From assembly GCA_009912575.1 (NCBI GenBank), contig WNDP01000003.1, positions 1 through 64,000 on the forward strand: a stretch of DNA of 64,000 bases, written 5' to 3'. The DNA comes from Acinetobacter bereziniae. Lineage in GTDB: Bacteria > Pseudomonadota > Gammaproteobacteria > Pseudomonadales > Moraxellaceae. This document shows, piece after piece, positions 7,362-51,733 of the stretch. Position numbers and translations under genes: made by a program. Each line of letters opens with the position of its first letter. The first letter of the stretch is position 1. The notes beneath the pieces were generated by a model. That model saw only the letters and a program-made list of their open reading frames with translations. It was not told where the DNA came from and searched no databases.

Positions 7362-7363
7362 TA

Positions 7364-8359: not shown

Positions 8360-8374
8360 TATTCAATTCCTATA

Positions 8375-9067: not shown

Positions 9068-9079
9068 TTCAAAACTCTC

Positions 9080-9142: not shown

Positions 9143-9174
9143 TATGGCTTTACATTATTTAAAAAACGATAATT

Positions 9175-10422: not shown

Positions 10423-10433
10423 GCCAAACCTCA

Positions 10434-10580: not shown

Positions 10581-10589
10581 AAGAATCCT

Positions 10590-11342: not shown

Positions 11343-11357
11343 AAGAACACCTTTTAA

Positions 11358-14217: not shown

Positions 14218-14226
14218 TGTTATCTC

Positions 14227-14523: not shown

Positions 14524-14530
14524 GAGCAAC

Positions 14531-14938: not shown

Positions 14939-14953
14939 GAGCTATCCTCTTAT

Positions 14954-15904
14954 TTAAGCTATTTGTTGATATTGATATTGACCATTTTCATAGCCAGTGA
15001 CAGAAATAATTTCACGGATAACACGGCTGCCGTTATGCTTTGCAATACAGACAACCACATCAACCGCTTCTGCAATCAAACTCGCCATTGGCGTAGTCGA
15101 TGCTTCCGAAATTAGCTGTTCAACCCTCGTTAAACCTGCTAAAGCGTTGTTTGCATGGACAGTAGCAACACCGCCAGGGTGACCAGTGTTCCATGCTTTT
15201 AATAGACTTAGTGCTTCTCCTCCCCTCACCTCACCAACAATGATACGATCAGGGCGCAAACGCATCGTAGCTTTAAGCAACCCAAGCATCGTGACTTCTT
15301 GACTTGTACGCATTACAACAACATTCTTATTTTTCGGCTGTAATTCAGCGGTATCTTCAATCAAAATACAGCGGTGATCAGGTGTGTATTCAGCAATTGC
15401 ATGTAAAATTGCGTTAGACAACGTTGTCTTACCTGTACCAGTACCACCAACAACAAGAATATTTTTACGCTCTTTCACAGCGTTAATAAGCGTTTCTTTC
15501 TGTGCAGCGGACATAATTCCGCTTTCAACATAATCATCTAAAGTAAAGATTTTTTGAGCCTTTTTACGAATAGTGAATGTTGGTGCAGAAACCACTGGAG
15601 GGATAAGAGCTTCAAAACGAGATCCATCAAATGGTAATTCGCACTCTAAAATTGGATTCTGTGCAGTCATCACGGTTTTTAATGTACTTGCAACAGTTGT
15701 CATTAATGCTTCGGCTTGATTGGCTGGCATCTTCCCAACCACTTCCATTTCTTGGCCTAATCTTTCTACCCACAAGCTATGATCAGGGTTTAAAAGAATC
15801 TCGACCACATCAGGCTCTTGCAGCAGACCGCTAACAATTGGCCCCATTTCACGCATTAATTTTTCTTTAACCCGACGATCAATCTCTTGCGTATTTGACA
15901 ACAC
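14954..15904 (-). CDS. trbB: TrbB/VirB11 traffic ATPase
   Basis: A 316-aa hexameric ATPase of the VirB11 family with Walker A GGTGTGKT near residue 153, an Asp-box (ILIEDTAE), Walker B (RIIVGEVRGGEA) and a His box (GHPGGVATVHAN). The start is GTG, preceded by AGGAAG, three bases after the stop of the upstream gene. It is the first recognisable gene of the mating-pair operon, as trbB is in RP4. Confidence 0.95.
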   Translation of the reverse strand: MLSNTQEIDRRVKEKLMREMGPIVSGLLQEPDVVEILLNPDHSLWVERLGQEMEVVGKMPANQAEALMTTVASTLKTVMTAQNPILECELPFDGSRFEALIPPVVSAPTFTIRKKAQKIFTLDDYVESGIMSAAQKETLINAVKERKNILVVGGTGTGKTTLSNAILHAIAEYTPDHRCILIEDTAELQPKNKNVVVMRTSQEVTMLGLLKATMRLRPDRIIVGEVRGGEALSLLKAWNTGHPGGVATVHANNALAGLTRVEQLISEASTTPMASLIAEAVDVVVCIAKHNGSRVIREIISVTGYENGQYQYQQIA

Positions 15905-31571: not shown

Positions 31572-34500
31572 ATGAAAAAAGAATATGTAGAAGAATTATC
31601 AGCACGGTTAATTGAGCAAATTAAATCAAATACAGCACCGTGGCAAAAACCCTGGAAGCCAGGTGAAATTAATACAGCATTGCCAAGAAACGTAATCACA
31701 GGTAAGCCTTATCGTGGTATGAACCTGATCAATTTGATGTCTAAAGCTTATGTGCAAGGCTATGATGATCCACGTTGGTTAAGTGCTAAACAAGGAAATG
31801 ACAAATTTGATGCTTATGTGCGAAAAGGCGAAAAAGGCACTCTAATCCATTACTGGAAGTTTACAGATGAACGCCAAAAGAAAGATGAAAACGGCAAACC
31901 TGTAATAGATGAAAATGGTAAACCTGTAAAAGAAGTTGTTAGATTAGATAAGCCACAAGTCTTTTTTAGTGTCGTATTCAATGCACAGCAGTTTGAGGGA
32001 ATGCCCCCAATTGAGAAAACCATCAAGCCGATTGAAGAATGGGAACGTCACCAACTGGCAGAAAATATTTTAAATAATTCAGGTGTACCAATACGCAATG
32101 TAAACGGTGATCGAGCTTACTATAATGTAGGTACAGATCAAATCACGATGCCTGAACGCTCACAGTTCGATAGTAGCGATAAATACTATGCAACAGCACT
32201 ACATGAGCTTGGACACGCTACAGGCCATCCTAGCCGTTTAAAACGTGATTTAACAGGCGGTTTCGGATCAGAAAATTACGCTAAAGAAGAATTAAGAGCT
32301 GAAATTGCATCTATGATGCTAGGACAGGAATTACAGATTGGTCATGATCCTAGTCAGCATGTAGCTTATTTACAATCTTGGGTAAAAGTGTTGGAAGAAG
32401 ATCCAAAAGAGATTTTCAGAGCCACAAGAGATGCTGATAAAATTATGGACTACGTTTTGGAGCTAAACCGCCAAAAGACCATAGAAAATACGCAAGAATT
32501 TTTACAAAAACTGGATCAAAACAAACAAACGGAACTTACACCGTCACTGGCTTATGAATCACTACAACAATTGGCTAAAGATGAAAATTTAGAGATACAG
32601 CCAATAACTATGCCAGGTAAATTGATTGTTAAACTCACCGTTGATACGGCTAAAAATCTGTCAGTTAATGCCGTCTTTGGTGAAGATGGTCATATTGCTT
32701 TGCATGACCTTGAAGATAAGCCATTAATCACAGCATTTAATTCAAATGACGATTTCAAGGTTTTTTCAACTCAAATTATCCGTGGTATTAAAGACACTAT
32801 CATAGAAAGAGAAAATCGTACTGAAATAGTCCAAGACCCTGATGTAATAGCTCATTTACAGCAATTACATGAAAAAATTAAAGCGACTTCGGGAAATAAA
32901 ACAGCTTTTGATATGTACGAGATTGTATCAAAACATGCTGAAAATATGGGTTATACCCCCATTATCACCGAACGCCCACTAAGAAATGAAGAAGATAGTC
33001 ATAATGGCTACCGTGTAAATCTTTATGATGGAAACCGTAAAACAGATGTTGGTGCAGATATTATGGGCGCTAATACTTTAGTCTGTTTAGGTGAAAAATC
33101 AGTACATGGAAGCTGGATTAATGATAAAGCCTGGATAGAAGAAAACTTATCTAAAGCTCTATTCCAAGACTTTGTAGATCAAGTTGCTTTAACGGTCGAT
33201 AAACCAACCCAAGAAAATAAAGATTCACTGTTAGTTACCTCAGCCCATAAAATTGCATTGTTTAATGCCAAGACTGACTATTTCCAGTTTGAAGCTGGGC
33301 CAACGTTTAAAGAACAGATCGTAAATTCACTCAAAGAGCAAAATTTAGCTGATGAAGAATTTATCGGCATTGCCTTACCATTTAATAGTAACGGTGGGCA
33401 TGTTGTTGTATCGCAGTCGGCAAAAGAAGTGGGGAAATTTCAGGTCACTGTCATAGGTGCAGATAATCAGCCTTTAAGTGATTTTGGGCAGCAAACTAAA
33501 GAAGAAGCATTAGAAACTTTCTTTAATAATGTCGATTTTACAGAGACATACAACCGCTTCAATGAAAAGCCTAAAAAGGTGTACCTGGATGTTCCTTATC
33601 ACGAAAAAGAGCAAGTCAAGGAGACTGGTGCTAAGTGGGATAAGAAAGAAAAAGCCTGGTATGTGATGAGTGATCAACTCGATATTGTTCACAATAAATG
33701 GATACGCAAGGATCAGCCTGAACAAGCCCAAGAACAGGTTAAAGACGCTGTACAAGATCAGTCTAAATCAGCTGAAAAAATATTTCTTACAGTCGATTAC
33801 AAGGACAAAAACGAAGTTAAAAAGCTAGGCGCTAAGTGGGATAAAAACGAAAAGTCTTGGTATGTTCCAGCAGGTCAAGATACAGCCCCTTTTGCAAAGT
33901 GGATTCCTGAAAGTGCAATTGCATTGGATCAAACCAAAGTAGGTGTGAACATGGAGAAAGTATTAGAAAAGGCGAAGATCAGCCTTACGGTTGATAATCA
34001 GCCTGTTGTGGCAGCTGGACAGGACTATGAAGCCGAAGTTGCAAAAAAAACTATGCTCACTGTAAGTTTTGCCGAAAAGGATGAAGTCAAAAAACTAGGT
34101 GCAAAATGGGATACCAAAGCAAAATCTTGGTACGTGCCAGCTGGTCAAGATACAGGCCCTTTTGAAAAATGGATTCCTGATCAAGTAGCCGTGGTCGATG
34201 TACAGAGCATAGCCCAAGATGAAGTAGCAAAAACCAATATGATTGAAAAAGAAAAATCAGTTGCTATTGAGCCTTTCGTAAGTGACGAAAAAATTTATTT
34301 AGCGGTCGCTTACGAGGATAGAGCCGAAGCAAAAGATGCTGGTGCAATGTGGGATGCAGAAGTTAAATGTTGGTATGCTCCAGCTGGCGTAGATATACAA
34401 CCGTTTGAGAAATTCTTACCTGAAAATCAGCCAAATGTTGAATCAAATGCTCATTTTACCAATTTACCTGATTTTCAGATGAATACTGATCCTGTACAGC

Positions 34501-35660
34501 AATTTGCACTGGCATTAAGGGATGCTGGCCTTATGGTTGATAAGCCTAAAATGGATGGTCAATTATATCGAGTACCTGTTAAGGGTGATGAGGGCGGTAA
34601 ATTAAGCGGTGCGTATAAAGCACATTTAAATGGCATTATGCCAGCTGGATTTATTCAAAATTACAAGACTGGTGATAAGTTTAACTGGAAAGCCGAGGGT
34701 AACTTCCAGGGCGCAGTTAATACGGCAAAAATGATTGCAGAAGCAGCGCAAAGAAAACAGAAGCAACAACAAAAACAAGAACAGCTATATGAAGAAGTAG
34801 CGGATCGGGCCGTAGCATTGATTGAACACGCCCAGCCAGTCAGTGAGCAAAATAAATACTTACAAGCTAAACAAGTTGAAAGCTATGGATTACTTGCTGT
34901 ACCTGGCCCAAGTCCTGAATTTGAAGCAATGGGTATCTATATTGGAAACACTTATAGCGAAACAAAGGCATTACGTGAAAAACATGCTGCTATGGATGAT
35001 AAGGATCAATACAAAGTCTTTATGACCAAAAACGACATTATGATTCCTGTTTCGGATCAGAAAGGCAAAGTCTGGACAGTTCAGACCATTGCAGAAAATG
35101 GATTTAAATCCTGGTTAAAAGGTGGCAAGAAACACGGTAATTTCTTCATACTTGGTCAGCCCGAAAATGGTAAACCAATTTTGGAAGCAGAGGGATACGC
35201 AACAGGCGCAACCTTGCATAAACTCACCAATAGACCTGTAGCTTTGGCCTTTGATAGCGGAAACCTGTTATCAGTCGCTATTGCCGTTAAGCAAATGTTT
35301 GATGCAAGCACAATATACGTGGCTGGTGACAATGACCGTGCAGCTTTTGAAGCTGGTAAAATGAAAGTGAATGTCGGTTTAGAAAAAGCCCTGGAAGCAG
35401 CTCAACAAGTCGGTGGACATACAATCATTCCAAACATTCAGAAAGGTGAAAAGCTAAGTGATTGGAATGATATTGCCGTTACTAAAGGCCCAGCCATAGC
35501 CAAAGATCAAATTAAGACGGCTCTTGAAAGTATTAAACATGAGCAGTCAAAGGTAAATGAGATTAAAAAAACACCTACTAGAGAGGAAAACATACCAGTT
35601 AAAGATAAGGCACAAACGCCCTGGAACACAGAACAGAAAGTAAGACATAGAAGCATGTAA
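31572..35660 (+). CDS. traC: TraC-like ArdC antirestriction / primase, 1362 aa
   Basis: The N-terminal part is an ArdC-type ssDNA-binding domain (WQKPWKPG, NLINL) followed by a zincin-like site H211-E212-x2-H215 (LHELGH). After a long middle region, four copies of a DUF5710-like motif (pattern VKKLGAKWDKNEKSWYVPAG) start at about residues 669, 736, 826 and 906. A C-terminal primase domain has TOPRIM motifs LEAEGYATG (about 1203) and VAGDND (about 1251). RP4 TraC is a primase delivered into the recipient. ArdC domains protect incoming DNA from restriction. The DUF5710 array makes this version longer than RP4 TraC. The basic tail ends KVRHRSM. Confidence 0.88.
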   Translation: MKKEYVEELSARLIEQIKSNTAPWQKPWKPGEINTALPRNVITGKPYRGMNLINLMSKAYVQGYDDPRWLSAKQGNDKFDAYVRKGEKGTLIHYWKFTDERQKKDENGKPVIDENGKPVKEVVRLDKPQVFFSVVFNAQQFEGMPPIEKTIKPIEEWERHQLAENILNNSGVPIRNVNGDRAYYNVGTDQITMPERSQFDSSDKYYATALHELGHATGHPSRLKRDLTGGFGSENYAKEELRAEIASMMLGQELQIGHDPSQHVAYLQSWVKVLEEDPKEIFRATRDADKIMDYVLELNRQKTIENTQEFLQKLDQNKQTELTPSLAYESLQQLAKDENLEIQPITMPGKLIVKLTVDTAKNLSVNAVFGEDGHIALHDLEDKPLITAFNSNDDFKVFSTQIIRGIKDTIIERENRTEIVQDPDVIAHLQQLHEKIKATSGNKTAFDMYEIVSKHAENMGYTPIITERPLRNEEDSHNGYRVNLYDGNRKTDVGADIMGANTLVCLGEKSVHGSWINDKAWIEENLSKALFQDFVDQVALTVDKPTQENKDSLLVTSAHKIALFNAKTDYFQFEAGPTFKEQIVNSLKEQNLADEEFIGIALPFNSNGGHVVVSQSAKEVGKFQVTVIGADNQPLSDFGQQTKEEALETFFNNVDFTETYNRFNEKPKKVYLDVPYHEKEQVKETGAKWDKKEKAWYVMSDQLDIVHNKWIRKDQPEQAQEQVKDAVQDQSKSAEKIFLTVDYKDKNEVKKLGAKWDKNEKSWYVPAGQDTAPFAKWIPESAIALDQTKVGVNMEKVLEKAKISLTVDNQPVVAAGQDYEAEVAKKTMLTVSFAEKDEVKKLGAKWDTKAKSWYVPAGQDTGPFEKWIPDQVAVVDVQSIAQDEVAKTNMIEKEKSVAIEPFVSDEKIYLAVAYEDRAEAKDAGAMWDAEVKCWYAPAGVDIQPFEKFLPENQPNVESNAHFTNLPDFQMNTDPVQQFALALRDAGLMVDKPKMDGQLYRVPVKGDEGGKLSGAYKAHLNGIMPAGFIQNYKTGDKFNWKAEGNFQGAVNTAKMIAEAAQRKQKQQQKQEQLYEEVADRAVALIEHAQPVSEQNKYLQAKQVESYGLLAVPGPSPEFEAMGIYIGNTYSETKALREKHAAMDDKDQYKVFMTKNDIMIPVSDQKGKVWTVQTIAENGFKSWLKGGKKHGNFFILGQPENGKPILEAEGYATGATLHKLTNRPVALAFDSGNLLSVAIAVKQMFDASTIYVAGDNDRAAFEAGKMKVNVGLEKALEAAQQVGGHTIIPNIQKGEKLSDWNDIAVTKGPAIAKDQIKTALESIKHEQSKVNEIKKTPTREENIPVKDKAQTPWNTEQKVRHRSM
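32261..32274. promoter_or_regulatory. KorB-box-like palindrome, intragenic (traC, 5' part)
   Basis: Exact TTTCGGATCAGAAA; encodes part of GFGSEN. Confidence 0.5.
35050..35063. promoter_or_regulatory. KorB-box-like palindrome, intragenic (traC, 3' part)
   Basis: Exact TTTCGGATCAGAAA; encodes SDQK in a different frame from the 32261 copy. Confidence 0.5.
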
Positions 35661-42144: not shown

Positions 42145-42726
42145 TTATCGACTTTTTGAAATTGTTTGGCTGTTGTCTAGGGATTTCACAACTTTTGTTT
42201 TGGCGTTTTGATCATTAGGCACTGTGATCGTTACTTTTGCGCCCACTGGTGGTACTTGATCCAATGATGCTTTTGAATGGAACATAACATATTTACTATT
42301 TTCGCCCAGGCGGTGAGCCACAAAATCTTTATTTTCAGCAATGATGATACCGTCCTGTTTTCCTGGTTGTTGTTTGACTACAACCGCATTGCTTCCAATC
42401 TTGCTCGTTGCTTCATTTTCAAAAGTTTTGTCCACTTTAGGGCTTTGTTTCTGTCTAACGATATTATCTAAATGACCATTAATTTCCTTGATGATTTCAT
42501 CAGCTTTGGCCATAGCACCTTTCATATCTACCTGGTTCTTTATTTCGATACCTTTTTGGTGTTCACCGTTATGCCATACCTCGATTCGTTCATTTTGGAA
42601 TTGAACGTAAATCTGTTCCTTATCCTTTTTTAAATACGAACTGTCGGCTTCATGCTTTACATGATTTTCTTGTGATGTGATGGTGTTCTTCACCATATTT
42701 ATTACTACTCTAGGCGTTATACTCAT
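42145..42726 (-). CDS. KfrB-domain protein, 193 aa
   Basis: The N-terminal half is polar with short KxxxV repeats and no recognised domain. The C-terminal part (about 115-175) matches a KfrB-like domain: GIIIAENKDFVAHRLG, YVMFHSKASLDQVPPVGAKV. Nearly the same block ends the Fic protein (47.3 kb) and the split lipase (50.5 kb). The last residues are basic (TISKSR), like the relaxase end. KfrB is an IncP protein of the kfrABC operon linked to stable inheritance. Start ATG with GAGG upstream. Confidence 0.7.
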   Translation of the reverse strand: MSITPRVVINMVKNTITSQENHVKHEADSSYLKKDKEQIYVQFQNERIEVWHNGEHQKGIEIKNQVDMKGAMAKADEIIKEINGHLDNIVRQKQSPKVDKTFENEATSKIGSNAVVVKQQPGKQDGIIIAENKDFVAHRLGENSKYVMFHSKASLDQVPPVGAKVTITVPNDQNAKTKVVKSLDNSQTISKSR

Positions 42727-42830
42727 TACTAAAATCCTCTTACATAATCGCTAATTCTTTGTTATCTTACACAATTCGTAAGAATTAATGTTTTGATTTT
42801 TGTACTTTTTTTATCAATTAGGTTGTAATT

Positions 42831-43997
42831 ATGGCTAATGTACCAGCGGAATTTTTAATACCTTTAAAAGTGGTAGCGGTACGCTTAAACCACATGAAAA
42901 CGCACTTACCTGGCTTGATGAAAAAGATCGAGAAACGAGCAATTCATAATCAAAAAAATCGTGCTGATGAAAAAGAATCAGACCTTTTATTAACTTGGGA
43001 TGACTGGATTTATTCTGCGCTCGATGCGGATCATGAGCGTGAACATGGAAGCGCTCAAGCACAGACTTTACCTGTGGCAATGCAAAACCTAAAAAATGGC
43101 TCTGTCTACGAACAGGCGCTTAAAAATGTGATGGGCCATTACGGTGTTAAAGCCAAAATGCCTGCTTGGGCCACAAATTTGAAAGTAGGGGAACACATCC
43201 CTAAAGAGTTGTTAGATCGCCTACCTGTAACGCAAGGTGAGCTGGTGACGCTTGGTAACTGGATGCTCACCAAGAACGTTTATCGTTTTGAAAGTATAGT
43301 GATCAACGAAATTTTAAAAACTGGTTTTGATGGTGTAATCCCGAACTACATCATCAATCTTCCTGATCTGTGTGTGTATATACAGACTGATAATGCTGTG
43401 GATCTCAAATTTGAAAATTGTCAAATTGTGGGTGTTCTTTTCTGCGTTACTGAACTGTGTGGCGACAAGCTTTTAGTCTCTACTATGTACCTGGATAATG
43501 GTTTGCCTAGAACCATTGCTATCATGCTCAATGAAGATCAGGATATTGAGTCAAGCTTGACTGATTTTGTTGATCAATTCCAACAAGATTATGAACCTGA
43601 AACAATGGGTGAAGAATTAAACGACCGTTTAGAGATTCAGAAAAAAATAATTAACCTGGTTTTATGGTTTAGCCAGCAAAAACCTGAAATTACGCCTTTA
43701 TCTCCTGAAAGCAACAATAAACCTGTTCAATTTGTCCAGGTGAAAAAGGAAAAGCGATTATTTGAAGCTTCAAAATATAAACCTTATAAAATCGGCACAG
43801 AAACCGCTGAAAAATTTAAGAAAATTTATGAAGAATTGGAAGATGCAAAAAAACATGCCAAAAGTGGAGGGAAACGTATGCCACATTTGCGTAAATCTCA
43901 TTGGCATTTGTATTGGTATGGCCCAAAAGGGAAAAATGAAAGTTATGATTTTAAGTTACTTCCAATCACAATGGTTGGCGGTATTCCCAAGACGTAA
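42831..43997 (+). CDS. AcrVA2-like anti-CRISPR family protein, 388 aa
   Basis: This resembles AcrVA2, the Cas12a inhibitor first described in Moraxella bovoculi. Shared landmarks in the same order are NLPDLCVYIQT (AcrVA2 has LPDWCVYVDI), a hydrophobic VLWFSQQKPEIT segment, and the C-terminal MPHLRKSHWHLYWYGPKG block (AcrVA2 has PHIRRGHWHGYWQGTG). It is longer at the N-terminus than the founding member. AcrVA2 lowers Cas12a levels by acting on its translation or mRNA. Many homologues occur on mobile elements without proven activity, so function is inferred. Start ATG with AGG upstream. Confidence 0.75.
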   Translation: MANVPAEFLIPLKVVAVRLNHMKTHLPGLMKKIEKRAIHNQKNRADEKESDLLLTWDDWIYSALDADHEREHGSAQAQTLPVAMQNLKNGSVYEQALKNVMGHYGVKAKMPAWATNLKVGEHIPKELLDRLPVTQGELVTLGNWMLTKNVYRFESIVINEILKTGFDGVIPNYIINLPDLCVYIQTDNAVDLKFENCQIVGVLFCVTELCGDKLLVSTMYLDNGLPRTIAIMLNEDQDIESSLTDFVDQFQQDYEPETMGEELNDRLEIQKKIINLVLWFSQQKPEITPLSPESNNKPVQFVQVKKEKRLFEASKYKPYKIGTETAEKFKKIYEELEDAKKHAKSGGKRMPHLRKSHWHLYWYGPKGKNESYDFKLLPITMVGGIPKT

Positions 43998-44045
43998 GAT
44001 AGATAAATTTGATATAATTAATTACAAAATTATGGGCGCTATGGA

Positions 44046-44558
44046 ATGTTAATTGCTATTTTAGATTTCCTATATTTGGGAAGTTTTTTTTCAATAGTTT
44101 GTATTTTTATCTCGATGTATTTGTTGGGATTTGCATTATTTTCACTGTTAAAAAAGCCTACGAATAACGCCTTTGCTTTTGCTATACCTATGACATTAAT
44201 TTCTTGGTTGGCGCTTAATGCAGCACCTATCCCACCAGTGGCCCAAGAGAACCTAAAAAAGATGCTGATCCAGCAAGCTAAATATGGTATTGGCTCAAAT
44301 GCCCTTGTGAATAATATAATTATGCCTTGCCGTGATAATGGATATTTAAGGGGGCATGACTATAATTGGGCGCTTAATGCCTATCAAAGAGACATACAGG
44401 GCCATGTAGACAAGACAGAAGTTTTTAAGGTGTCTCCAAAACCCAATTTAAATATAGATAAAAATTTAAAGCTCTGTGAGTTCACCGATAAATTCAACGA
44501 AATTAAATTTAATGAAGTACGCAAAAATGAATCGACCAATTCGACTAAGAATAGTTAA
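44046..44558 (+). CDS. Membrane protein of unknown function, 170 aa
   Basis: Two helices at about 7-34 and 41-58 followed by a polar domain with two Cys and an Asn/Ser-rich tail. It ends one base before the right inverted repeat. The start is uncertain because the Shine-Dalgarno is weak. Not recognised. Confidence 0.55.
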   Translation: MLIAILDFLYLGSFFSIVCIFISMYLLGFALFSLLKKPTNNAFAFAIPMTLISWLALNAAPIPPVAQENLKKMLIQQAKYGIGSNALVNNIIMPCRDNGYLRGHDYNWALNAYQRDIQGHVDKTEVFKVSPKPNLNIDKNLKLCEFTDKFNEIKFNEVRKNESTNSTKNS

Positions 44559-44559
44559 A

Positions 44560-44718
44560 AAATGAGTGGCAAAATATTCCACGGCCACACTTTCTGCAGC
44601 GATCGCACCGGCTTAATCCTGAATTTGATAAGTGCTTGTTTTTTCTTAGTACACCAAAAAAGGATCAGTTTTCTTGATTGGCATTTTATTACAGGTTTAA
44701 GGGCCTATGAACACTAGC
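44560..44718. repeat. Right copy of 159-bp inverted repeat
   Basis: Inverse identical copy of 36247-36405. Its outer end supplies the stop codon of the adjacent minus-strand gene. Confidence 0.95.
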
Positions 44719-45040
44719 TAAAGGTTAAAGCCTTTGAATCTGCAATTTTAATTTGCAACTTCCCTTTATGATTAGTTAAAACCCCAGTACCACAAACAGT
44801 TTTAAAAAGGTTATTTGAACTAATATTCTGATTATTTAGGTAAAAATAAAACTTTTGATATGGATGTGGACTATCCAGGTTAATAAAAGTATCACTCTTG
44901 ATAGTAGCAATTTCAGCAACCTTTCCACAAACAGTAACCTTTTTGCCAACAAACCCCGATAACTGCTCAGGTGCAAGCTTGTTAGCAGCATATACACCAA
45001 AAGGCATAGAAAGTAATAACGACAAGACCAAATATCTCAA
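44714..45040 (-). CDS. Secreted OB-fold-like protein, TTG start
   Basis: A 108-aa protein with a signal peptide ending GVYA-AN and a beta-rich domain with VGKKVTVCGKVAEI, typical of bacterial OB-fold nucleic-acid-binding-like or periplasmic proteins. I choose TTG at 45040 because AGGAG lies 7 nt upstream and the signal peptide then starts properly; a GTG upstream overlaps the previous gene. The last two codons come from the inverted repeat, so the original C-terminus may have been altered. Confidence 0.6.
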   Translation of the reverse strand: MRYLVLSLLLSMPFGVYAANKLAPEQLSGFVGKKVTVCGKVAEIATIKSDTFINLDSPHPYQKFYFYLNNQNISSNNLFKTVCGTGVLTNHKGKLQIKIADSKALTFS

Positions 45041-45051
45041 TTTAAAACTCC

Positions 45052-45234
45052 TTATTTCCACTTCCACATAATCTTATATTCATGTGTAAATTCTTCATCA
45101 CTATCAGGATACTTTCCTTTAAGCTCTTTGTAGATTTCTACTGGATCAGTCAGCTCTACATGCTCAGATAATGGATAATCATAGCAATCATAAGTTTCTT
45201 CACCATCAATAAATAGAACAAGATATAAGGACAT
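45052..45234 (-). CDS. Hypothetical protein, 60 aa
   Basis: A small acidic protein beginning MSLYLVLFIDGEE, with no recognised motif. Start ATG has GGAG upstream. It overlaps no other gene and lies in line with its neighbours. Confidence 0.5.
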   Translation of the reverse strand: MSLYLVLFIDGEETYDCYDYPLSEHVELTDPVEIYKELKGKYPDSDEEFTHEYKIMWKWK

Positions 45235-45254
45235 ATATGCTCCTTTCGCTATTA

Positions 45255-45548
45255 TTAAATATTTTTAACTTTAAAGTGCTTGAACTTTTCCCAATAGATT
45301 GTTTTTTTCAATTCCTCTATAAATTCTTCTTTTGGGATTGAGTTAAATAACTTCTGTCGAAGAACATCTAATTCAATACTAGCATCTACAGTTAATGGAA
45401 TTTCAAAAAGATAATTATATTTAGTTCTAATATAATTGTTTTGCCAAACAGCAGATAAGTATTGAGATCTTTGCGCTGGCTGTAATTTCAGGGCTGTTTC
45501 TAATTCATTTTTTGTAGACTTACTTTGATTAATACGAATCTTAACCAT
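45255..45548 (-). CDS. Hypothetical protein, 97 aa
   Basis: A basic, soluble protein without known motif. The ATG at 45548 has AAGGG 7 nt upstream and is preferred to a TTG two codons further. It is downstream of the H-NS gene, from which it is separated by a terminator hairpin. Confidence 0.5.
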   Translation of the reverse strand: MVKIRINQSKSTKNELETALKLQPAQRSQYLSAVWQNNYIRTKYNYLFEIPLTVDASIELDVLRQKLFNSIPKEEFIEELKKTIYWEKFKHFKVKNI

Positions 45549-45641
45549 AACCAAACCCTTAAATTGATTTATTTACCCAATCCAGTTGAAATTGTTTTAA
45601 ACCAAGAATAATCATTGGTTTCCTCTTTTAATCTATGAAAT

Positions 45642-45673
45642 TAAAATAAGGTCAGATAAACCTATCTGACCCT
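45642..45673 (-). terminator. Terminator after hns
   Basis: GGTCAGAT / ATCTGACC stem with 6-nt loop followed on the minus strand by TTATTTTAATTT. Confidence 0.7.
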
Positions 45674-45684
45674 TTGCAAAGCTA

Positions 45685-46014
45685 TTAAGAAATTAAGAAG
45701 TCCTCTAAATTTGCACCAGCTTCGATTTCAGCCACTAACCAACGTGGTTGCTTCCCTCTACCTGTCCAAGTATCAGCAGCATTGGTTTTGCTTCGGTAAC
45801 GTGGCTCTACAGGCTTGCGTGTTGCTTTTTTATTGCGCTTTGCACCCATTTCTAATAGCTCAGAAATAGAGTAGCCAACATTATCAGCAATTGCCAAAAC
45901 TTGATCATAAGCATCAATAATGGCTTGCTCAGTTTTTTCCTCAATCAGTTTATCAGCTTTGACTTGAAGATTTTTTAATTCCTCAACACTTAGGTTTTCA
46001 ATATTAATACTCAT
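45685..46014 (-). CDS. hns: H-NS-family nucleoid protein
   Basis: A 109-aa H-NS-like protein: N-terminal coiled-coil oligomerisation region (SVEELKNLQVKADKLIEEK), basic linker, and C-terminal AT-hook-like domain with PRYRSK followed by TWTGRGKQPRWL, the H-NS DNA-binding signature. Plasmid H-NS proteins silence AT-rich foreign genes and reduce the cost of carriage. An upstream ATG in frame lies within the -10 box and cannot be used; the chosen ATG has GAGG upstream. It is driven by the plasmid cassette promoter. Confidence 0.92.
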   Translation of the reverse strand: MSINIENLSVEELKNLQVKADKLIEEKTEQAIIDAYDQVLAIADNVGYSISELLEMGAKRNKKATRKPVEPRYRSKTNAADTWTGRGKQPRWLVAEIEAGANLEDFLIS

Positions 46015-46042
46015 AATGTCCTCTTGGTTTTCTAACTTCAAC

Positions 46043-46113
46043 ATGGCTGTTGCCATATCCGTTGTTTGAGTGGTCATTATAATAAAATAAGCGCTATATT
46101 GTCAATAACGCTT
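46043..46113 (-). promoter_or_regulatory. hns promoter cassette
   Basis: Minus strand -35 TTGACA (46100-46105), 18-bp spacer, -10 TATAAT (46076-46081), 19 bp, ATGGC-AACA-GCCAT (46043-46056). Inverted repeat AAGCGCTAT / ATAACGCTT (46089-46113) has one mismatch. Confidence 0.8.
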
Positions 46114-46132
46114 TACATTAGAATACTAATTT

Positions 46133-46146
46133 TTTCGGATCGGAAA
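46133..46146. promoter_or_regulatory. KorB-box-like palindrome, copy upstream of hns
   Basis: TTTCGGATCGGAAA, keeping TTTC-N-GATC-N-GAAA; 27 bp upstream of the hns -35. Confidence 0.6.
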
Positions 46147-46554
46147 TCATATTTCATTAAGGTATATTGAATATTCTTTGCTTTTTTCCTTTGGTTTTAA
46201 GACAAGCAATGTGCCTAAAATCTTTATGTTTTCCTCCTCTCGAATATCCACGGTCACAAAGTTTTTATTGCCAGCAATATAGTAAAAATCATTAATACTG
46301 TTAGAAACCTGGATAAACTCTTGTGCTTTTTTCTTACTACACTCTTTCACATTAAAGCTTTCATGGTTAATAAAAATCCCTACTTCCGTTGGCCTAGCAT
46401 AATCACAAATTCGGCTCTTTACAGCATCATGTAATGTCGCTGTTTTCTTCATATCAATGTCATTTAACTTATCAAGAAGTTTGCTATTCAGAAAATAGCG
46501 AGCAGCTTTAAATGACAAAACGACCCAAACACAGAAAAAGATAAGATTTAGCAT
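46147..46554 (-). CDS. Membrane-anchored protein, 135 aa
   Basis: One N-terminal helix (about 3-22), the rest soluble with mixed charge and three Cys. It follows a related-looking larger protein (next entry) by a 7-bp overlap, so the pair is probably co-translated. Unknown function. Confidence 0.55.
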   Translation of the reverse strand: MLNLIFFCVWVVLSFKAARYFLNSKLLDKLNDIDMKKTATLHDAVKSRICDYARPTEVGIFINHESFNVKECSKKKAQEFIQVSNSINDFYYIAGNKNFVTVDIREEENIKILGTLLVLKPKEKSKEYSIYLNEI

Positions 46555-47015
46555 TTTTCACTTCCAATCTTTTCAACAAGTTTTGCTGAAAAATATTTAG
46601 TTTGATATTTCCGCCCAATCATTAAAATAAAGCTTCCATATACTTCCATTGTTTCAGGATTAAAATATATGAAAGGTGCATTCTGCTTGTTTACAAGGCT
46701 ATCATCTTGCAATTGCAAAGGGTTCTCTATCGCATCTTTAAACCAGCCTTTATCTTCCAGTTTAATAGCATCGGTAAGATTCATGTTTTTATTATCAACT
46801 ACAGGGGAATAGAAAAAAACAGGTGCAAGTTTAATCATGCGCTTGAAATATATCCCCTTAAATGGATATTCAATAATTTTCAAACTGAATTTTGACTGAA
46901 TAATTACCACAAATATAATCTTTATTAAAATAAGGATAATTGCCAAACATACACCAACAGCTACCCCTGAAAAAATACTTCTAAAAAGACCCAAATTTTC
47001 AAAAAACTCAATCAC
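46548..47015 (-). CDS. Membrane-anchored protein, 155 aa, GTG start
   Basis: One long hydrophobic helix (about 13-40) and a soluble C-terminal domain. The downstream gene has a similar plan. A GTG at 47015 with GGGAAAG upstream overlaps the end of the previous gene by 8 bp; longer in-frame starts would overlap it by 68 bp. Not recognised. Confidence 0.5.
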   Translation of the reverse strand: MIEFFENLGLFRSIFSGVAVGVCLAIILILIKIIFVVIIQSKFSLKIIEYPFKGIYFKRMIKLAPVFFYSPVVDNKNMNLTDAIKLEDKGWFKDAIENPLQLQDDSLVNKQNAPFIYFNPETMEVYGSFILMIGRKYQTKYFSAKLVEKIGSEKC

Positions 47016-47265
47016 TTGTACTTTCCCACTTTGTACCGCCAACCTGCTCTTTAGGAAGATAAATATCCTTACCATCCACTGTAATAATATAATCCTGTTT
47101 AATGAATGTTTGTTTCAACTTACCTTTGTAAACCGTACAATCCTTTTTTGGCGTTTCAAAACAATTATTTAACCAAACTTCTGCATTATCATGACGGTTT
47201 ATAAAAAATGCAGCGATATGGAAGATCACATATAGCGCCAATAGAGTAAGAATTATACTTTTCAT
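47008..47265 (-). CDS. Small membrane protein, 85 aa
   Basis: An N-terminal helix (about 5-21) then a charged, beta-rich domain with two Cys (NNCF, KDCTVYKG). Start ATG. It is first in a three-gene set following the Fic gene by 14 bp; an immunity-like or envelope role is possible but unsupported. Confidence 0.55.
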   Translation of the reverse strand: MKSIILTLLALYVIFHIAAFFINRHDNAEVWLNNCFETPKKDCTVYKGKLKQTFIKQDYIITVDGKDIYLPKEQVGGTKWESTSD

Positions 47266-47279
47266 TTATAGCACCAAAA

Positions 47280-48263
47280 TTAACGTTTAATTTCTTTAGA
47301 TTTAGATAGCTCTTTATTCTGCATATTTTCTACCTTTGCAGTATTAGTATCAGCCTTATGCGTAATTGAAACCACTTCATTAACTTTAGGTGGTTGATCA
47401 AAGCTTTTCTTTTCATGGACGACAAAGTGTTTACTGTAATCCCCCAGCCTTTGGGCGACAAAGTTTTCTGTTTCAGCAACTATACGCCCCTCATATCTTC
47501 CAGGACTTGCTTTGTGTACCTGGGCGTTAGGCGCTAAATCAAGTGCTGTTTTTTTTAATGTTTCTTTCTCATCAATTACGTTGTCTTGTTTTATTTGTAA
47601 GGAATGAACAATTTTATTCATTACATCCTTTAGCAACTGAATATCCTTTGGCATTGTAATCTGATCCGAGCCATGAAACCGTGTTTGATCACTCAAAGCT
47701 CGTTTACACGCATAGTTCCACTCACGCTTTTCCACCTGATCAAAATTGACCTGATACCCAGCTTCATTCGCCAGCTGCTTCATCATCAATTTAGTTGCCC
47801 GACCGTTCCCCTCCTCAAAAGGGTGAATCTCATTTATGTTGGCGTACAAGTTTGTAAATTTATCAACGAATTGTTCTTTATTCAGCCCCTTTAAGGAATT
47901 GCTATCTTTAATTTCCTTTGTAAAGTCTTCAAAAGAAAAATGAATATCTTTGGCCTTTAGGAAGTACCCGACTTCCTTTTTCCCCTCTGGTGAGGGTATT
48001 GCTTTATAAATATCAAAGTGTCTTTGCTTTCCAGCAAAATCTTGAATCCCATCAAATAGCTTATGATGTATTTGCGCCAAATGATTAAAATCGTAATTTC
48101 CCTTGATTGGGTTAATTTCAAGGGCCTCAGTACGGTTTTTTGTAATTCGATATTCTAGTTGAGTATTACTATCTGCCTGTTCTCTCGATGTAACAGGTTC
48201 ATTTAATATTTCTTTTACTTTTGCGTAAAATTCTTGTCGTTCTTGATCTGAATACTCGCTCAC
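47280..48263 (-). CDS. Fic-domain AMPylase-type toxin with C-terminal KfrB-like domain
   Basis: A 327-aa protein. The Fic core has the motif H147-PFEEGNGR (residues 147-155), which transfers AMP or another nucleotide moiety to a target protein. The last conserved Arg of the motif is replaced by Lys158. There is a linker rich in Lys/Asp, then a KfrB-like domain (about 250-305: GRIVAETENFVAQRLG, VVHEKKSFDQPPKV). The tail is basic (KSKEIKR). Start GTG with GGAGAGG upstream. A probable antitoxin is encoded just upstream. VbhT of Bartonella, a plasmid Fic toxin with a type IV secretion signal and antitoxin VbhA, is the closest known parallel in design. Confidence 0.85.
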   Translation of the reverse strand: MSEYSDQERQEFYAKVKEILNEPVTSREQADSNTQLEYRITKNRTEALEINPIKGNYDFNHLAQIHHKLFDGIQDFAGKQRHFDIYKAIPSPEGKKEVGYFLKAKDIHFSFEDFTKEIKDSNSLKGLNKEQFVDKFTNLYANINEIHPFEEGNGRATKLMMKQLANEAGYQVNFDQVEKREWNYACKRALSDQTRFHGSDQITMPKDIQLLKDVMNKIVHSLQIKQDNVIDEKETLKKTALDLAPNAQVHKASPGRYEGRIVAETENFVAQRLGDYSKHFVVHEKKSFDQPPKVNEVVSITHKADTNTAKVENMQNKELSKSKEIKR

Positions 48264-48283
48264 TTTCCTCTCCTAATAAAAAA

Positions 48284-48305
48284 ATCAGCATAATTGCTGA
48301 CTTTT
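48284..48305 (-). terminator. Attenuator-like hairpin between antitoxin and Fic genes
   Basis: TCAGCA / TGCTGA stem followed on the minus strand by a T-run, in the 54-bp gap. It would lower toxin expression relative to antitoxin. Confidence 0.65.
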
Positions 48306-48317
48306 TAATCATTCTTA

Positions 48318-48518
48318 CTACTTGGAAGCATTAAGTCTTTTCCATTCCGCCATTAATGCAGCATCTTCCTGTTCAAATGTTGTTTCGCCATTCAAAATAC
48401 GTTGCTGTCTTGCCTGATCCGCAGCCTGGCAAGCATCAATAACATCCTGGGAAAATTCGTGATCTACGATACCTTTAGCACTTCGGAAAGCTTCTTCTAA
48501 CTTAACTGCACTATTCAT
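48318..48518 (-). CDS. Probable antitoxin for the Fic protein (VbhA-like)
   Basis: A 66-aa, helical, acidic protein encoded immediately before the Fic gene. The second half (ILNGETTFEQEDAALMAEWKRL) resembles the end of VbhA-type antitoxins. I cannot find the exact inhibitory S/TxxxE(G/N) helix motif, so the assignment depends on size and context. Start ATG with GAGG upstream. Confidence 0.6.
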   Translation of the reverse strand: MNSAVKLEEAFRSAKGIVDHEFSQDVIDACQAADQARQQRILNGETTFEQEDAALMAEWKRLNASK

Positions 48519-48566
48519 AGACAAACATCCTCTTGGTTATACCGATATTATACTTGATTTTTTATT

Positions 48567-48580
48567 TTTCGTATCCGAAA
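48567..48580. promoter_or_regulatory. KorB-box-like variant upstream of 48.7-kb operon
   Basis: TTTCGTATCCGAAA, 25 bp upstream of the -35; centre GATC replaced by TATC, outer arms intact. Confidence 0.5.
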
Positions 48581-48605
48581 ATTTGTATGTAATTGTAAAG
48601 TGTTA

Positions 48606-48667
48606 TTGTAAATATTTCAGCTCATTTTATATACTTATAAACACACTGGAATTATGGAAACATCCAT
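48606..48667 (+). promoter_or_regulatory. Promoter of propeller-lipase-peptidase operon
   Basis: -35 TTGTAA (48606-48611), 18-bp spacer, -10 TATACT (48630-48635), 18 bp, then ATGGA-AACA-TCCAT (48654-48667). Both arms of the leader palindrome changed together (C to A and G to T), so pairing is preserved. Confidence 0.7.
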
Positions 48668-48709
48668 AAATAAGGCATAATTAGCACAACTTCAAAGCAG
48701 TAGCTTAAT

Positions 48710-49651
48710 ATGAACAGCATTAGAGAAGAATTTGCAGTCACGTCCCTGGCGATGGACTTGACCAAAGATTTAATAGCCACTGGCTGCTATTCCGAAAACA
48801 AGATTAATTTTTGGAATGTAAGCAACCGTACAAAAGTCAAAACAATCCGCTTTGATAAAGCATTTAACCCTATTAATTCAATACTTTTCTTTAAGAACAA
48901 TATTGCTTTCATTGCCAATTCAGCTGCAAATGCGGTGATCCTACACGGTGAAAATTTCAGCGAAATACAAAAGTTAAATCGTAAAGAAAACCGTGAAATT
49001 GTTGCCATTTCGCACTCTAAAGATAATTTCATGGTGGCCTGTCAACGACCACTACTTCAAACATTAAACGGAAAAATTGCGGAAGATATTTTTATTTACG
49101 ATTCTAATGACTGGACATTAAAACAGACCGTTTCTAGTAACTCTCTTATCCTTGATGCAAAAGTATCTAATCAATTACTGTTTACAATCGCATTAGATGA
49201 CCAAGACGGCCTTTTTAAGCTTACCGTGATGGACTTGACCAGCTCACAGGTGAACACGCTAGAATTGGGCAATGACGCTTATACAGCGCAACTAGCAACA
49301 AACGATCAAAGCCACATCGTTTCTGTTATTTTAAGAATAAACAATGATGAAGATGGATCAATGTTAAATACATTATTCATTATCGACTTAAACACGAAAG
49401 AAATTATTTATAAAAATACTGTTACCAATGGCGACGACTATTTAAATTGCCAGGTAATCAATAACAATAAGCTGATTATTGATTTCTATGATCATGCTGC
49501 ACAAACATCCTATTTGAAATTAATAAATAGCCAGGGAATGGAATTATCTAAGCGCAAAGTCAATGGCATCACAACCTACGGTATAGCTACAACAGAAAAC
49601 CTAATTGCTTTGGCTGTAAATAACTATGTTGAATTTATGGAGCTAGGCTAA
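48710..49651 (+). CDS. Predicted beta-propeller protein, 313 aa
   Basis: No signal peptide or membrane segment. Repeated blocks of about 40-45 residues with hydrophobic strands and Asp/Asn turns (LIATGCYSENKINFWNV, DIFIYDSNDWTL, LFIIDLNTKEIIY) look like WD40-type blades. It is the first gene of a four-frame operon. Its stop overlaps the next start (ATGGC...TAATG). Propellers usually act as interaction scaffolds; the partner here may be the lipase-like protein encoded next. Confidence 0.6.
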   Translation: MNSIREEFAVTSLAMDLTKDLIATGCYSENKINFWNVSNRTKVKTIRFDKAFNPINSILFFKNNIAFIANSAANAVILHGENFSEIQKLNRKENREIVAISHSKDNFMVACQRPLLQTLNGKIAEDIFIYDSNDWTLKQTVSSNSLILDAKVSNQLLFTIALDDQDGLFKLTVMDLTSSQVNTLELGNDAYTAQLATNDQSHIVSVILRINNDEDGSMLNTLFIIDLNTKEIIYKNTVTNGDDYLNCQVINNNKLIIDFYDHAAQTSYLKLINSQGMELSKRKVNGITTYGIATTENLIALAVNNYVEFMELG

Positions 49652-50010
49652 TGGCTGATATTCGGGATTTAGTACAAATTACTCAAAATACCTATCAACG
49701 CTTAACCGATCCAACAGGAAGCAAAGATTTAAAGATCAGTGGCAACTTAGATTTTGTCGGCTATGCAAAGGATGAACGTTCAGATCATGGTGGTATTGCT
49801 TATTATGATAAAGCAAAAAAAGAGGTTGTTATTGGTAATCGTGGAAGCGCCACAGCAAGAGACTGGTTAGTGACTGACCCTCAGATTGTAGTAGGTGTAC
49901 GTGAGACATTGGCAGATATAGCAGCAAAACGTTTTGCTGACAAAGTTATCAATGACCTAGATCGGAAGAACCAAAAGATTGAAACAATACGTGTGTGGGC
50001 CATAGCTTAG
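49651..50010 (+). CDS. N-terminal part of a frameshifted lipase-like protein
   Basis: A 119-aa fragment with an alpha/beta-hydrolase N-terminal region (FVGYAKDERSDHGGIAYYD, VVIGNRGSATARDWLVTDP). It stops just before the nucleophile elbow. The following frame, shifted, begins with the missing GHSLGG. The intact gene would encode a lipase-like protein of about 350 aa. One lost G in the GGG run near 49998, or a gained GT, explains the break. Confidence 0.65.
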   Translation: MADIRDLVQITQNTYQRLTDPTGSKDLKISGNLDFVGYAKDERSDHGGIAYYDKAKKEVVIGNRGSATARDWLVTDPQIVVGVRETLADIAAKRFADKVINDLDRKNQKIETIRVWAIA

Positions 50011-50705
50011 GTGGACACCAAAGCCAAATGGTTTTAGCTCACCTAACCGACATTGCTATTCCTAATGTTGAGTGCCAAAGCGTAACGTTCAATAGTCTTG
50101 GCGTACACAAAAGTCTTAAACAGGAAAATACAGAATACAACCATGTCAACTTACAAGTTACAGGTAACGGAAAAATTGCATTTGCTTCAACAGACCTTGT
50201 AAGCGAAATCAGAACACAGTTAGGCCAAAATTTTAATGTTCCCCTAAATGTTGGTAATCCAATATCAGCCCATAAAATGACTACAGCAGCAAAGATGCTG
50301 GATGAATATCCTGAAACCAGCAAACTTACAGCAAAAGAAATGCTCAAACTAATTCAACAAGGCATGGACATAAAAACGATTGAACAACACCAAAATAAAA
50401 ATCAGGTTTATGCTGGCAACCAAACCCTACAAACCACTGTAGCAACCGCCACCCTTTCCAACGTAACACTTATTCCAGCCACACCAGGACTACACACAGG
50501 CAACATCATATCTGAAAACAAAACACAGGTATTTCAGCAGCTAGAGAACTCTCAGAAGTACGTCATTGTCCATGAAAAAGATAAGTTAGACCACGTTCCA
50601 AAAGTTGGTGAAAAAGTAAGTATTAGACACAATGCAAATAACCAAGCTAAATCCAAAGTCGAAAAAATTGAAGCCAATGAAAATAAAAAAACTAGAGGGC
50701 GGTAA
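49995..50705 (+). CDS. C-terminal part of lipase-like protein with KfrB-like domain
   Basis: Contains the lipase nucleophile elbow GHSLGGHQ (GxSxG) and the remaining alpha/beta-hydrolase core, a linker, and a KfrB-like domain (GNIISENKTQVFQQL, YVIVHEKDKLDHVPKVGEKV). The tail is basic (ENKKTRGR). Independent translation would need the GTG at 49995 and would lack the N-terminal strands, so this is most likely the second half of a broken gene or of a recoding site. Overlaps the next gene by TAATG. Confidence 0.7.
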   Translation: MGHSLGGHQSQMVLAHLTDIAIPNVECQSVTFNSLGVHKSLKQENTEYNHVNLQVTGNGKIAFASTDLVSEIRTQLGQNFNVPLNVGNPISAHKMTTAAKMLDEYPETSKLTAKEMLKLIQQGMDIKTIEQHQNKNQVYAGNQTLQTTVATATLSNVTLIPATPGLHTGNIISENKTQVFQQLENSQKYVIVHEKDKLDHVPKVGEKVSIRHNANNQAKSKVEKIEANENKKTRGR

Positions 50706-51733
50706 TGAAAAACAGTAGTCAAATAATTTTAGTATTTACTGCAATTACAGCATTAGTTATTTCTTCAATATTATTTGTAATGATGACGCTATATATTCAG
50801 CCTAGCTTTTATATGCTTGGCTTGAATATGGCAATAATAGCAATATCCTTTCTATATATTGCCCACTTTATTTACAAATCACTAGGAGAAACAGTTAGCG
50901 ATAAAAATAGCACACCTTATGCGGTATATTGCATCATGACTGTACTTGCTGGATTCCTTGTATTTTCAGCATTATTTTTTGGTGATTTATATAATTTAAG
51001 AGATCAAAAGAAGTTTGAAGCTTCAAACTTTAATGAGCTTCAAAGCAAAGAATTGAACACCATAAAAGAATTAGGTAAAGAAAATAATGTATATGTCCGT
51101 TATGGAAACAAGAACACTTCATGGGCCAACACAAGGCTGATTATTCCAAATAGCTCAGGCGCATCGTTATATATCATGAATGGGTATTGCGCCCTAAACT
51201 ATACAGACGATTCAATTAAAGACATGAAATCAAAGCTTGTTAAGAATATACCGAAAGCAGATTTAATGGCTCAACAAATTGATATAGCAAAAATTACGAT
51301 CCAGGCACATGAGCTTGCTCATTGTCTCGATATAAAAAGAGACTTTGCTACTTTCAACTTAGATAAAATTAAAGACCCTAAATCACCCATTATAGGAAAT
51401 CAGGCCATTGCACCCAAATTAAGAAAGAACATTACAGATATGGAAGCTTATCTTGATGCAAGTGCTACATCAGAATCAACTTTATGGAAAGAAACTTTCG
51501 CTGATCTTTACGCTATAGGTTACTTATACATACACCACCCTCTTATTGCGGATCAGGTAACACATAATTTAGACATTTATAGAGATAAACAAGAAGAAGA
51601 CCCTGAACACGCTTCAAGCTGCTGGTTAAAACTAGCCCAGCAAAGTAAAAAACCAACAAACAACGAACAACTTATAGAATGGGCTGACAACATAAGGGCA
51701 AGTAAAGGCTGCCAAAACAATTTTTATTCTTAA
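50705..51733 (+). CDS. Membrane metallopeptidase-like protein, 342 aa
   Basis: Three N-terminal helices (about 5-27, 35-57 and 72-95) and a soluble domain with a zincin motif HELAHCLD near residue 203 and a downstream ETFADLYAIGY that could give the third metal ligand (Glu). This resembles gluzincin-type peptidases, but no known family was recognised. It is the last gene of the propeller-lipase operon, tightly coupled. Confidence 0.65.
   Translation: MKNSSQIILVFTAITALVISSILFVMMTLYIQPSFYMLGLNMAIIAISFLYIAHFIYKSLGETVSDKNSTPYAVYCIMTVLAGFLVFSALFFGDLYNLRDQKKFEASNFNELQSKELNTIKELGKENNVYVRYGNKNTSWANTRLIIPNSSGASLYIMNGYCALNYTDDSIKDMKSKLVKNIPKADLMAQQIDIAKITIQAHELAHCLDIKRDFATFNLDKIKDPKSPIIGNQAIAPKLRKNITDMEAYLDASATSESTLWKETFADLYAIGYLYIHHPLIADQVTHNLDIYRDKQEEDPEHASSCWLKLAQQSKKPTNNEQLIEWADNIRASKGCQNNFYS

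Follow-up and report, generated by a model that had tools for sequence, protein, structure and literature searches.

A KfrB domain with a basic tail as a candidate delivery signal for conjugation-borne toxins in Acinetobacter bereziniae

The 64,000 nucleotides at positions 1 to 64,000 of contig WNDP01000003.1 of Acinetobacter bereziniae (GenBank assembly GCA_009912575.1), here called the window, encode three proteins in which different N-terminal parts are followed by a C-terminal KfrB domain and a basic tail. An earlier note on this DNA had proposed, with VbhT as the model, that domain and tail together may serve as a translocation or tethering signal for toxins carried along in conjugation, and this proposal is partly supported by the comparisons below. 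The three proteins, one of them a lipase in two pieces, are as follows.

42145..42726, minus strand: OrfA-KfrB, 193 aa, N-terminal part without family assignment; KfrB domain at 42223-42354 (Pfam, 26.1 bits)
42148..42165, minus strand: C-terminal tail of OrfA-KfrB, TISKSR (translation)
47280..48263, minus strand: Fic-KfrB, 327 aa, GTG start; Fic PF02661 (Pfam, 42.9 bits) and KfrB (45.2 bits), KfrB domain at 47352-47498
47283..47306, minus strand: C-terminal tail of Fic-KfrB, SKSKEIKR (translation)
49651..50010, plus strand: N-terminal piece of the frameshifted lipase (list of open reading frames, sequence)
49995..50705, plus strand: C-terminal piece of the lipase with GHSLGG; KfrB at 50493-50651 (Pfam, 43.4 bits)
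50682..50702, plus strand: C-terminal tail of the lipase, NKKTRGR (translation)

In all three proteins the KfrB match (PF18790) exceeded the Pfam gathering cut-off. Their C-terminal regions aligned over about 90–125 aa with 30–36 % identity (BLASTP E about 2e-12 to 7e-14), and the best DNA match among the three KfrB regions was 72 % over 50 bases. The protein E-values and the low DNA similarity indicate that the sharing of KfrB is beyond chance and is not the result of a recent duplication. No further KfrB match was found in the 5.16 Mb assembly, and none in 14 control genomes. OrfA-KfrB had no match in NCBIfam, PHROG or PADLOC. The shared domain described in the earlier note is therefore present in each protein, but the span 49651-50705, taken there as one protein, is made up of two open reading frames (ORFs) in different frames, so that the window copy of the lipase is frameshifted; its two pieces were searched separately. 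Of the motifs named in that note, AE-x-F-V-x-RLG and PPVGxxV, a partial fit was seen in OrfA and Fic but no literal fit in the lipase alignment. The basic tails SKSR, EIKR and TRGR were confirmed in the translations.

To survey relatives, a hidden Markov model was grown from the three window domains, iterated on retrieved loci (L numbers below) and then counted partly on those same loci. Matches with E below 1e-5 comprised 71 ORFs at first and, with more loci, 101 raw or 68 non-redundant ORFs, non-redundancy being set by 60 % clustering, after which related elements are still not independent. In 67 of the 68 non-redundant ORFs, KfrB was at most 110 residues away from the C-terminus, and in 51 of 56 fusions at most 30 residues. 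Three weak matches (L033, L065 and L070) were rejected as KfrB, as they look like another family and their match lies about 175 residues before the C-terminus; one case of this type was kept separate in the count of 68. Scans of IMG/VR gave no relatives.

The partners identified by Pfam included several toxin classes. KfrB was fused to Fic in four proteins (window, L011, L063 and L064), to a zeta toxin in five (L005, L031, L036, L040 and L041, the KfrB of L005 being below the Pfam cut-off at 20 vs 25 bits), to a Tle1-like phospholipase in L013, to a DUF676 esterase in L022 and to nucleotidyltransferase-type proteins in L034 (AbiEii) and L039 (NTP_transf_8). The domain was also found on proteins of the transfer apparatus itself, namely two type IV secretion system (T4SS) coupling proteins of the TraG/VirD4 family (L034 44904-47444 and L037 5614-8157), annotated TraI relaxases in five plasmids (L023, L024, L034, L037 and L042) and a relaxase piece in L069; in one plasmid search, seven of 15 records had their KfrB match on a TraI. 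In betaproteobacterial plasmids, KfrB occurred on proteins annotated as DNA methylase, LPD7, LPD1 and DUF5710, with nine KfrB ORFs in a single plasmid stretch (L038). Stand-alone KfrB proteins without terminal arginine (Arg), up to three per genome, were seen in one genus (L056, L057, L058, L066, L067, L071 and G277, G numbers denoting genomes).

In a FastTree phylogeny of 40 KfrB domains, the four Fic fusions were scattered and formed no common group. The KfrB domain of the window Fic fell among those of Acinetobacter (the two enclosing groups having support 0.72 and 0.87), that of G341 with the IncP KfrB (0.88), that of G1189 with a zeta fusion (0.89) and that of G1283 elsewhere. Single branches are weak because the domain is short; as a whole, the tree suggests as its simplest reading that the Fic-KfrB fusion arose more than once.

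The tails of these proteins share their last residue. Terminal Arg was present in 45/56 non-redundant KfrB fusions, compared with 129/1016 de-duplicated other ORFs of the same loci (Fisher 5e-28) or 140/1170 such ORFs in raw form (Fisher 2.8e-29), the background ORFs having been picked greedily by length on both strands and not being curated genes. An earlier, smaller cut gave 51/65 vs 84/705, or 35/47 vs 78/626 when non-redundant. By sampling batch, the frequency was 41 of 50 fusions in loci up to L042 and four of six in later loci; a hand count of later loci (L059–L064, L068 and L069) gave six of eight and includes the close pair L060/L062, the short L059 and L068, which misses the E-value limit. 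Common endings were hydrophobic-x-Arg (DLGR, GIER, ELTR, EIAR) or basic-small-Arg (SKSR, TRGR), and the last 20 residues carried a mean net charge of +2.1 in fusions vs +0.8 in other ORFs. Beyond the domain, length and sequence differ from protein to protein, which makes mere inheritance an unlikely reason for the conserved last residue.

A similar ending was found on relaxases. Among relaxases of KfrB-bearing elements that were readable to the end, 16 of 18 ended in Arg (window, L018, L019, L023, L024, L026, R751, L034, L035, L036, L037, L042, L045, L046, L047 and L079), the two without it being L050 and L069. Several of the 16 are related, six bear KfrB themselves, and L035 and L036 were called relaxases by DUF3363 annotation; outside the count lie G639, G667 (internal stop) and the relaxase of G237, which ends VSR and is far from the KfrB gene. 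On contigs without a KfrB match, Arg ended only four of 12 relaxases (L081, L084, L085 and L091, as opposed to L077, L078, L082, L083, L086, L088, L089 and L090; L090 and L091 are below the Pfam cut-off), which rules out terminal Arg as a universal feature of MOBP relaxases. The IncP relaxase TraI of R751 ends SKGRSR and has no detectable KfrB. In G277, the KfrB proteins end LSH, IKS and LKI, and the relaxase is likewise without Arg (RSL).

The 65,975-base contig that holds the window also holds a relaxase, a coupling protein and Trb-type T4SS genes for mating-pair formation.

5477..15904, minus strand: Trb-type T4SS genes TrbB, C, D, E, F, G, I and L (tblastn with R751 proteins, 33–56 % identity)
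26224..28155, plus strand: MOBP relaxase with TraI_middle and LPD7 (Pfam)
28132-28152, plus strand: C-terminal tail of the relaxase, KKEGKSR (translation)
28152..30077, plus strand: T4SS coupling protein TraG/VirD4 (Pfam, 357.9 bits; 47 % identity to R751 TraG)
31572..35660, plus strand: TraC-like polyvalent protein with ArdC_N, MPTase, four DUF5710 and Toprim, without KfrB (Pfam)

The relaxase end KKEGKSR was given correctly in the earlier note. Pfam also placed genes for a KorA-like protein and a Rep3 initiator on the same contig, and a similar order of transfer genes was seen in Acinetobacter plasmids of ~50 kb. The Pfam scan of the window covered 28 proteins, a part of its ORFs.

Across genomes KfrB was rare, being found in 3/176 genomes of the genus, 5/398 of the phylum and 8/369 of the class, with the source genome counted in each, and in 1/295, 12/280 and 1/2 genomes of three orders; all of these draws overlap. 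A coupling protein was encoded no more than 33 kb away from KfrB in 12 of the 22 KfrB-positive genomes (G000, G008, G194, G237, G277, G341, G731, G809, G1213, G1254, G1283 and G1326) and elsewhere in the assembly in four (G664, G1355, G1411 and G1388), against a baseline of 24/175 genomes with any coupling protein in the genus of the window. By tblastn limited to the stretch itself, Trb, TraG or MOBP relaxase genes were found in 12 of 20 KfrB-bearing plasmid stretches from the Fic and KfrB searches, the R751 reference not being counted. In G237 a chromosomal IncP-like cluster (L043 9288-19999), with TrbE and TraG 82 and 68 % identical to those of R751, has the gene order TrbI, TrbJ, TrbL, SLT transglycosylase, two tandem paralogues, Tle1-KfrB and TraG. 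The paralogues have a signal-peptide-like start as judged by eye, and the sole PF03432 relaxase match of this genome is far from the cluster (0.55 Mb vs 5.57 Mb). This arrangement matches the layout expected for effector and immunity genes in a secretion operon.

The Fic-KfrB protein of the window has its Fic motif, HPFEEGNGRATK, at residue 147; compared with HxFx(D/E)GNGRxxR, K replaces the last R, as it also does in all three KfrB-less Acinetobacter Fic relatives. Pfam gave Fic and KfrB only, with no BID domain. The score against the NCBIfam VbhT equivalog model, 91.3 bits, is below its cut-off of 800, so that the protein is not VbhT, though it may work in a VbhT-like way. Single-sequence fold prediction gave a mean pLDDT (predicted local distance difference test score) of 47 and was unusable. 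A candidate antitoxin gene lies 54 bases upstream.

48318..48524, minus strand: ORF of 68 aa, candidate antitoxin, resembling by eye the small ORFs upstream of KfrB-less Fic

The KfrB-less Fic genes of L008, L009 and L010 have similar small ORFs, compared by eye, 1, 1 and 69 bases upstream. For the 68-aa ORF, no family match was found in NCBIfam, PHROG or PADLOC and only a sub-threshold match in Pfam. The inhibitory motif of VbhA-type antitoxins is S/T-x-x-x-E-G/N. The 68-aa ORF is without an exact copy of it, and the Fic-KfrB genes of L011 and L063 have small ORFs with S-x-x-x-E-G upstream. Overlapping ORFs of 70–141 aa likewise precede the zeta fusions of L005, L036, L040 and L041.

Relatives of this Fic protein also occur on plasmids with genes of a different secretion-system type. 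The KfrB-less proteins of L008, L009 and L010 end in the Asp-containing sequences DDDSNTPSFF, DDDSNTPTFF and NDDDSPSYG, and one of their plasmids, pFA267, has a gene of the DotG/IcmE type and another for a T4SS DNA-binding protein. A C-terminal block rich in Glu has been described as a Dot/Icm signal (PMC10025392). One Fic toxin may thus carry different tails for different machines, on a sample of three proteins of which two are close. As a separate observation, the A. baumannii plasmid CP101888.1, which encodes Dot/Icm-type T4SS genes, holds a 95 % identical Fic-KfrB (L007 20001-20980) in two frames, with the break between the Fic and KfrB parts.

For the lipase, intact single-ORF homologues with KfrB were found in L006 and L022 (351 aa), the latter matching the DUF676 serine esterase family with 24.6 bits at a cut-off of 20.3 (Pfam). 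Its gene in the window is flanked on both sides by overlapping genes.

48710..49651, plus strand: beta-propeller-like protein, 313 aa, candidate partner or immunity protein, overlapping the lipase start; WD40 matches weak, below the Pfam cut-off
50705..51733, plus strand: membrane protein with HExxH motif, overlapping the lipase stop; its homologue adjoins the lipase in L006 and L022

A crude hydropathy scan found no membrane segment in the beta-propeller-like protein. Its homologues, with 24–95 % identity, stand directly upstream of lipase-KfrB with a start overlap in L018, L019, L020 and L022. The membrane protein had no Pfam family above cut-off. Further along the window, an ORF with repeats and an anchor-like end (51819-53057) resembles a trimeric autotransporter adhesin, the ORF at 53253-54197 is lipoprotein-like and contains a CAP domain (47 bits in Pfam), 54992-59598 has the look of a Tn7-type transposition module (TnsA/TnsB/TnsC/TniQ-like), and at 59943-63998 a large RHS-repeat-like protein begins that continues past the window end; all but the ORF with the CAP domain were named by sequence alone.

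Several known systems combine a C-terminal domain or tail with T4SS transfer. VbhT, in which a Fic toxin is joined to a BID domain derived from a relaxase, is transferred to recipients in conjugation, and further toxins of toxin–antitoxin (TA) modules have been proposed as T4SS substrates (PMC5675462). The VbhT/VbhA pair of Bartonella schoenbuchensis plasmid pVbh resembles the window in its Fic toxin, its C-terminal domain that also occurs on conjugative relaxases, its small antitoxin (here a candidate) and its conjugative plasmid; it differs in having BID instead of KfrB and a VirB/Vbh-type instead of an IncP/Trb-type system, and the relaxase of the window has the Arg tail in common with the toxins but carries no KfrB. 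Agrobacterium VirB/D4 substrates have a common C-terminal Arg motif, and Bartonella effectors combine the BID domain with a positively charged tail (PMC10025392). F-type substrates, however, have C-terminal, internal and mixed signals (PMC11288057), so that no tail counts as proof of transfer. Xanthomonadales T4SS effectors (X-Tfe) share a C-terminal XVIPCD, with DUF2235/PF09994 among their domains (PMC6536674). The killing system of the Xanthomonadales is similar in that one C-terminal domain is spread across many enzymes, with immunity genes usually upstream (PMC6536674), but XVIPCD measures ~120 residues with a glutamine-rich end, whereas KfrB has about 55–70 residues, often ends in Arg and is found on conjugative plasmids and relaxases. 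No XVIPCD with a Gln-rich end was found in the window proteins, whose domain is KfrB (Pfam) and whose tails are basic. The polyvalent proteins of Iyer et al. 2017 are plasmid proteins predicted to travel with DNA, and KfrB occurs here on proteins with LPD7, DUF5710, MPTase or methylase annotations; the toxins here, unlike them, are short and not large multidomain proteins. C-terminal T4SS delivery domains are thus already known, and the system is not of a new kind. A description of KfrB as a delivery domain or of KfrB–toxin fusions was not found in the literature (open-licence papers).

Taken together, we consider it probable, if well short of assured, that KfrB with an Arg-ended tail forms a C-terminal delivery module for conjugative T4SSs of the IncP/Trb type (TrbB-I and TraG), with the window Fic and lipase as cargo toxins that have partners. 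The observed domain and tail, their sharing with relaxases and coupling proteins, the gene neighbourhoods and the more than one fusion to Fic suggest recognition and translocation, and would imply toxicity, a function for the partners and a benefit, either by addicting recipients at once or by gaining an advantage over them. KfrB would be the docking fold and the Arg tail a short signal, recognized by the relaxosome or the coupling protein, and module-bearing proteins would enter the recipient together with the plasmid. Many of the cargo proteins, namely methylases and those of the anti-restriction and polyvalent kinds, would make the recipient ready, and some would be toxins taken from TA modules, or phospholipases. 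In the window, Fic-KfrB would act as the toxin of a FicTA-like pair, and the lipase would have the upstream beta-propeller protein as its partner. The partner genes of the Fic, zeta and lipase fusions gave no KfrB match; being without the module, the partner would stay in the donor and be made only by those recipients that establish the plasmid. Coupling proteins with KfrB should not be cargo, and both end at the domain without an Arg tail.

The survey of KfrB fusions near T4SS genes that the earlier note had called for, run in part, found the module capping toxins, polyvalent proteins and relaxases, with Arg enriched and TraG/VirD4 often near, but it also found six of 22 KfrB-positive genomes without a coupling protein (G006, G694, G821, G1189, G1266 and G1390, of which G821 and G1266 are weak matches), which rules out that KfrB is confined to T4SS-bearing genomes. 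This and the following points weigh against delivery. G006 has close relatives of both Fic and lipase and only TrbJ and TrbL matches beside the lipase. Of 15 plasmids with a match to the window domain, nine were typed non-mobilizable by MOB-suite, although two of the nine have TraI and a coupling protein in their annotation, and in PLSDB this MOB-suite label stands on some plasmids despite annotated relaxase, TraG or Trb genes. The 11 Arg-less fusions comprise the two coupling proteins and nine others, and among the nine the methylase, DUF5710 and zeta proteins argue against a strict rule; methylases and the DUF5710 protein would be expected as cargo, yet they lack Arg. Among short or stand-alone KfrB proteins, only 4/11 have a terminal Arg. 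The window relaxase has no KfrB (Pfam), and a hidden KfrB at the C-terminus of IncP TraI was rejected by profile comparison (probability 0.2 %, three TraI sequences). TraC of R751 is absent from the KfrB matches and ends in Gly; its RP4 counterpart, TraC1, is reported as transferred (PMC5512222), a paper whose main text contains no words starting 'Kfr', 'Fic' or 'LPD7'. The window lipase is broken. The Fic-KfrB of L064 has no Fic motif, no small S-x-x-x-E-G ORF upstream and no Arg end, and its genome has no coupling protein. The intact lipase-KfrB of L022 lies on a plasmid with DotL and does not fit a strict rule of one tail per machine.

The chief alternative, which we regard as unlikely, is that KfrB tethers proteins to the plasmid maintenance machinery (KfrA/KfrC or the segrosome), holding toxins, methylases and relaxases close to plasmid DNA, with the tail adding DNA affinity and without export. 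It is suggested by the place of IncP kfrB in a plasmid-maintenance operon. IncP KfrB (upf54.8, a name from PMC9499019, e.g. in R751) has the same Pfam domain as the window proteins but, in R751, is a short protein ending RGRSM and encoded in a kfrA-kfrB-kfrC operon, which has been postulated to serve plasmid maintenance (PMC7783346); this too counts against delivery. R751 kfrB adjoins ParA/ParB genes, and KfrB is fused to a TrfB-related DNA-binding protein in L027 (2194-2694). On the other hand, Pfam scans of 28 window proteins, a part of the ORFs, showed no KfrA-like family, and tethering leaves unexplained both the terminal Arg on relaxases without KfrB and the phospholipase with two exported-looking neighbours in G237.

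Slightly less likely still, the proteins may be ordinary intracellular TA or anti-phage modules, with KfrB regulatory or serving dimerization, the tail binding nucleic acid, and proximity to T4SS genes following from life on conjugative plasmids. The small ORFs upstream of Fic and zeta, in the style of a TA operon, are consistent with this, as are the match of the Fic part to the PADLOC candidate defence family PDC-S04 (142 bits) and the occurrence of KfrB proteins on plasmids of several lineages. However, the same module caps unrelated proteins, including relaxases and coupling proteins, and KfrB-less Fic relatives on other plasmids have quite different tails. A tail that signals proteolysis or processing, combined with KfrB as an accessory fold of polyvalent proteins that has no part in delivery, seems very improbable, since the tails are indeed short and variable save for their last residues but the Arg end is often common to relaxases, a protein class delivered in known systems.

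The delivery reading can be extended, more tentatively and at somewhat less than even chances, to a general and hitherto unnamed cargo module of IncP/Trb conjugation. KfrB would then mark a whole plasmid secretome, made up of relaxases, proteins that condition the recipient and toxins of several classes, and the coupling protein would read the module, in some plasmids via its own KfrB by like-with-like docking.

If true, the best-known broad-host-range type of conjugation would routinely inject toxins alongside DNA, and a domain detectable in sequence would predict the proteins that IncP/Trb-type plasmids send to recipients. Conjugative toxin delivery would extend from the Bartonella example to many plasmids, with a hint as to why plasmid TA toxins gain extra C-terminal domains, and IncP kfrB would gain a testable role.

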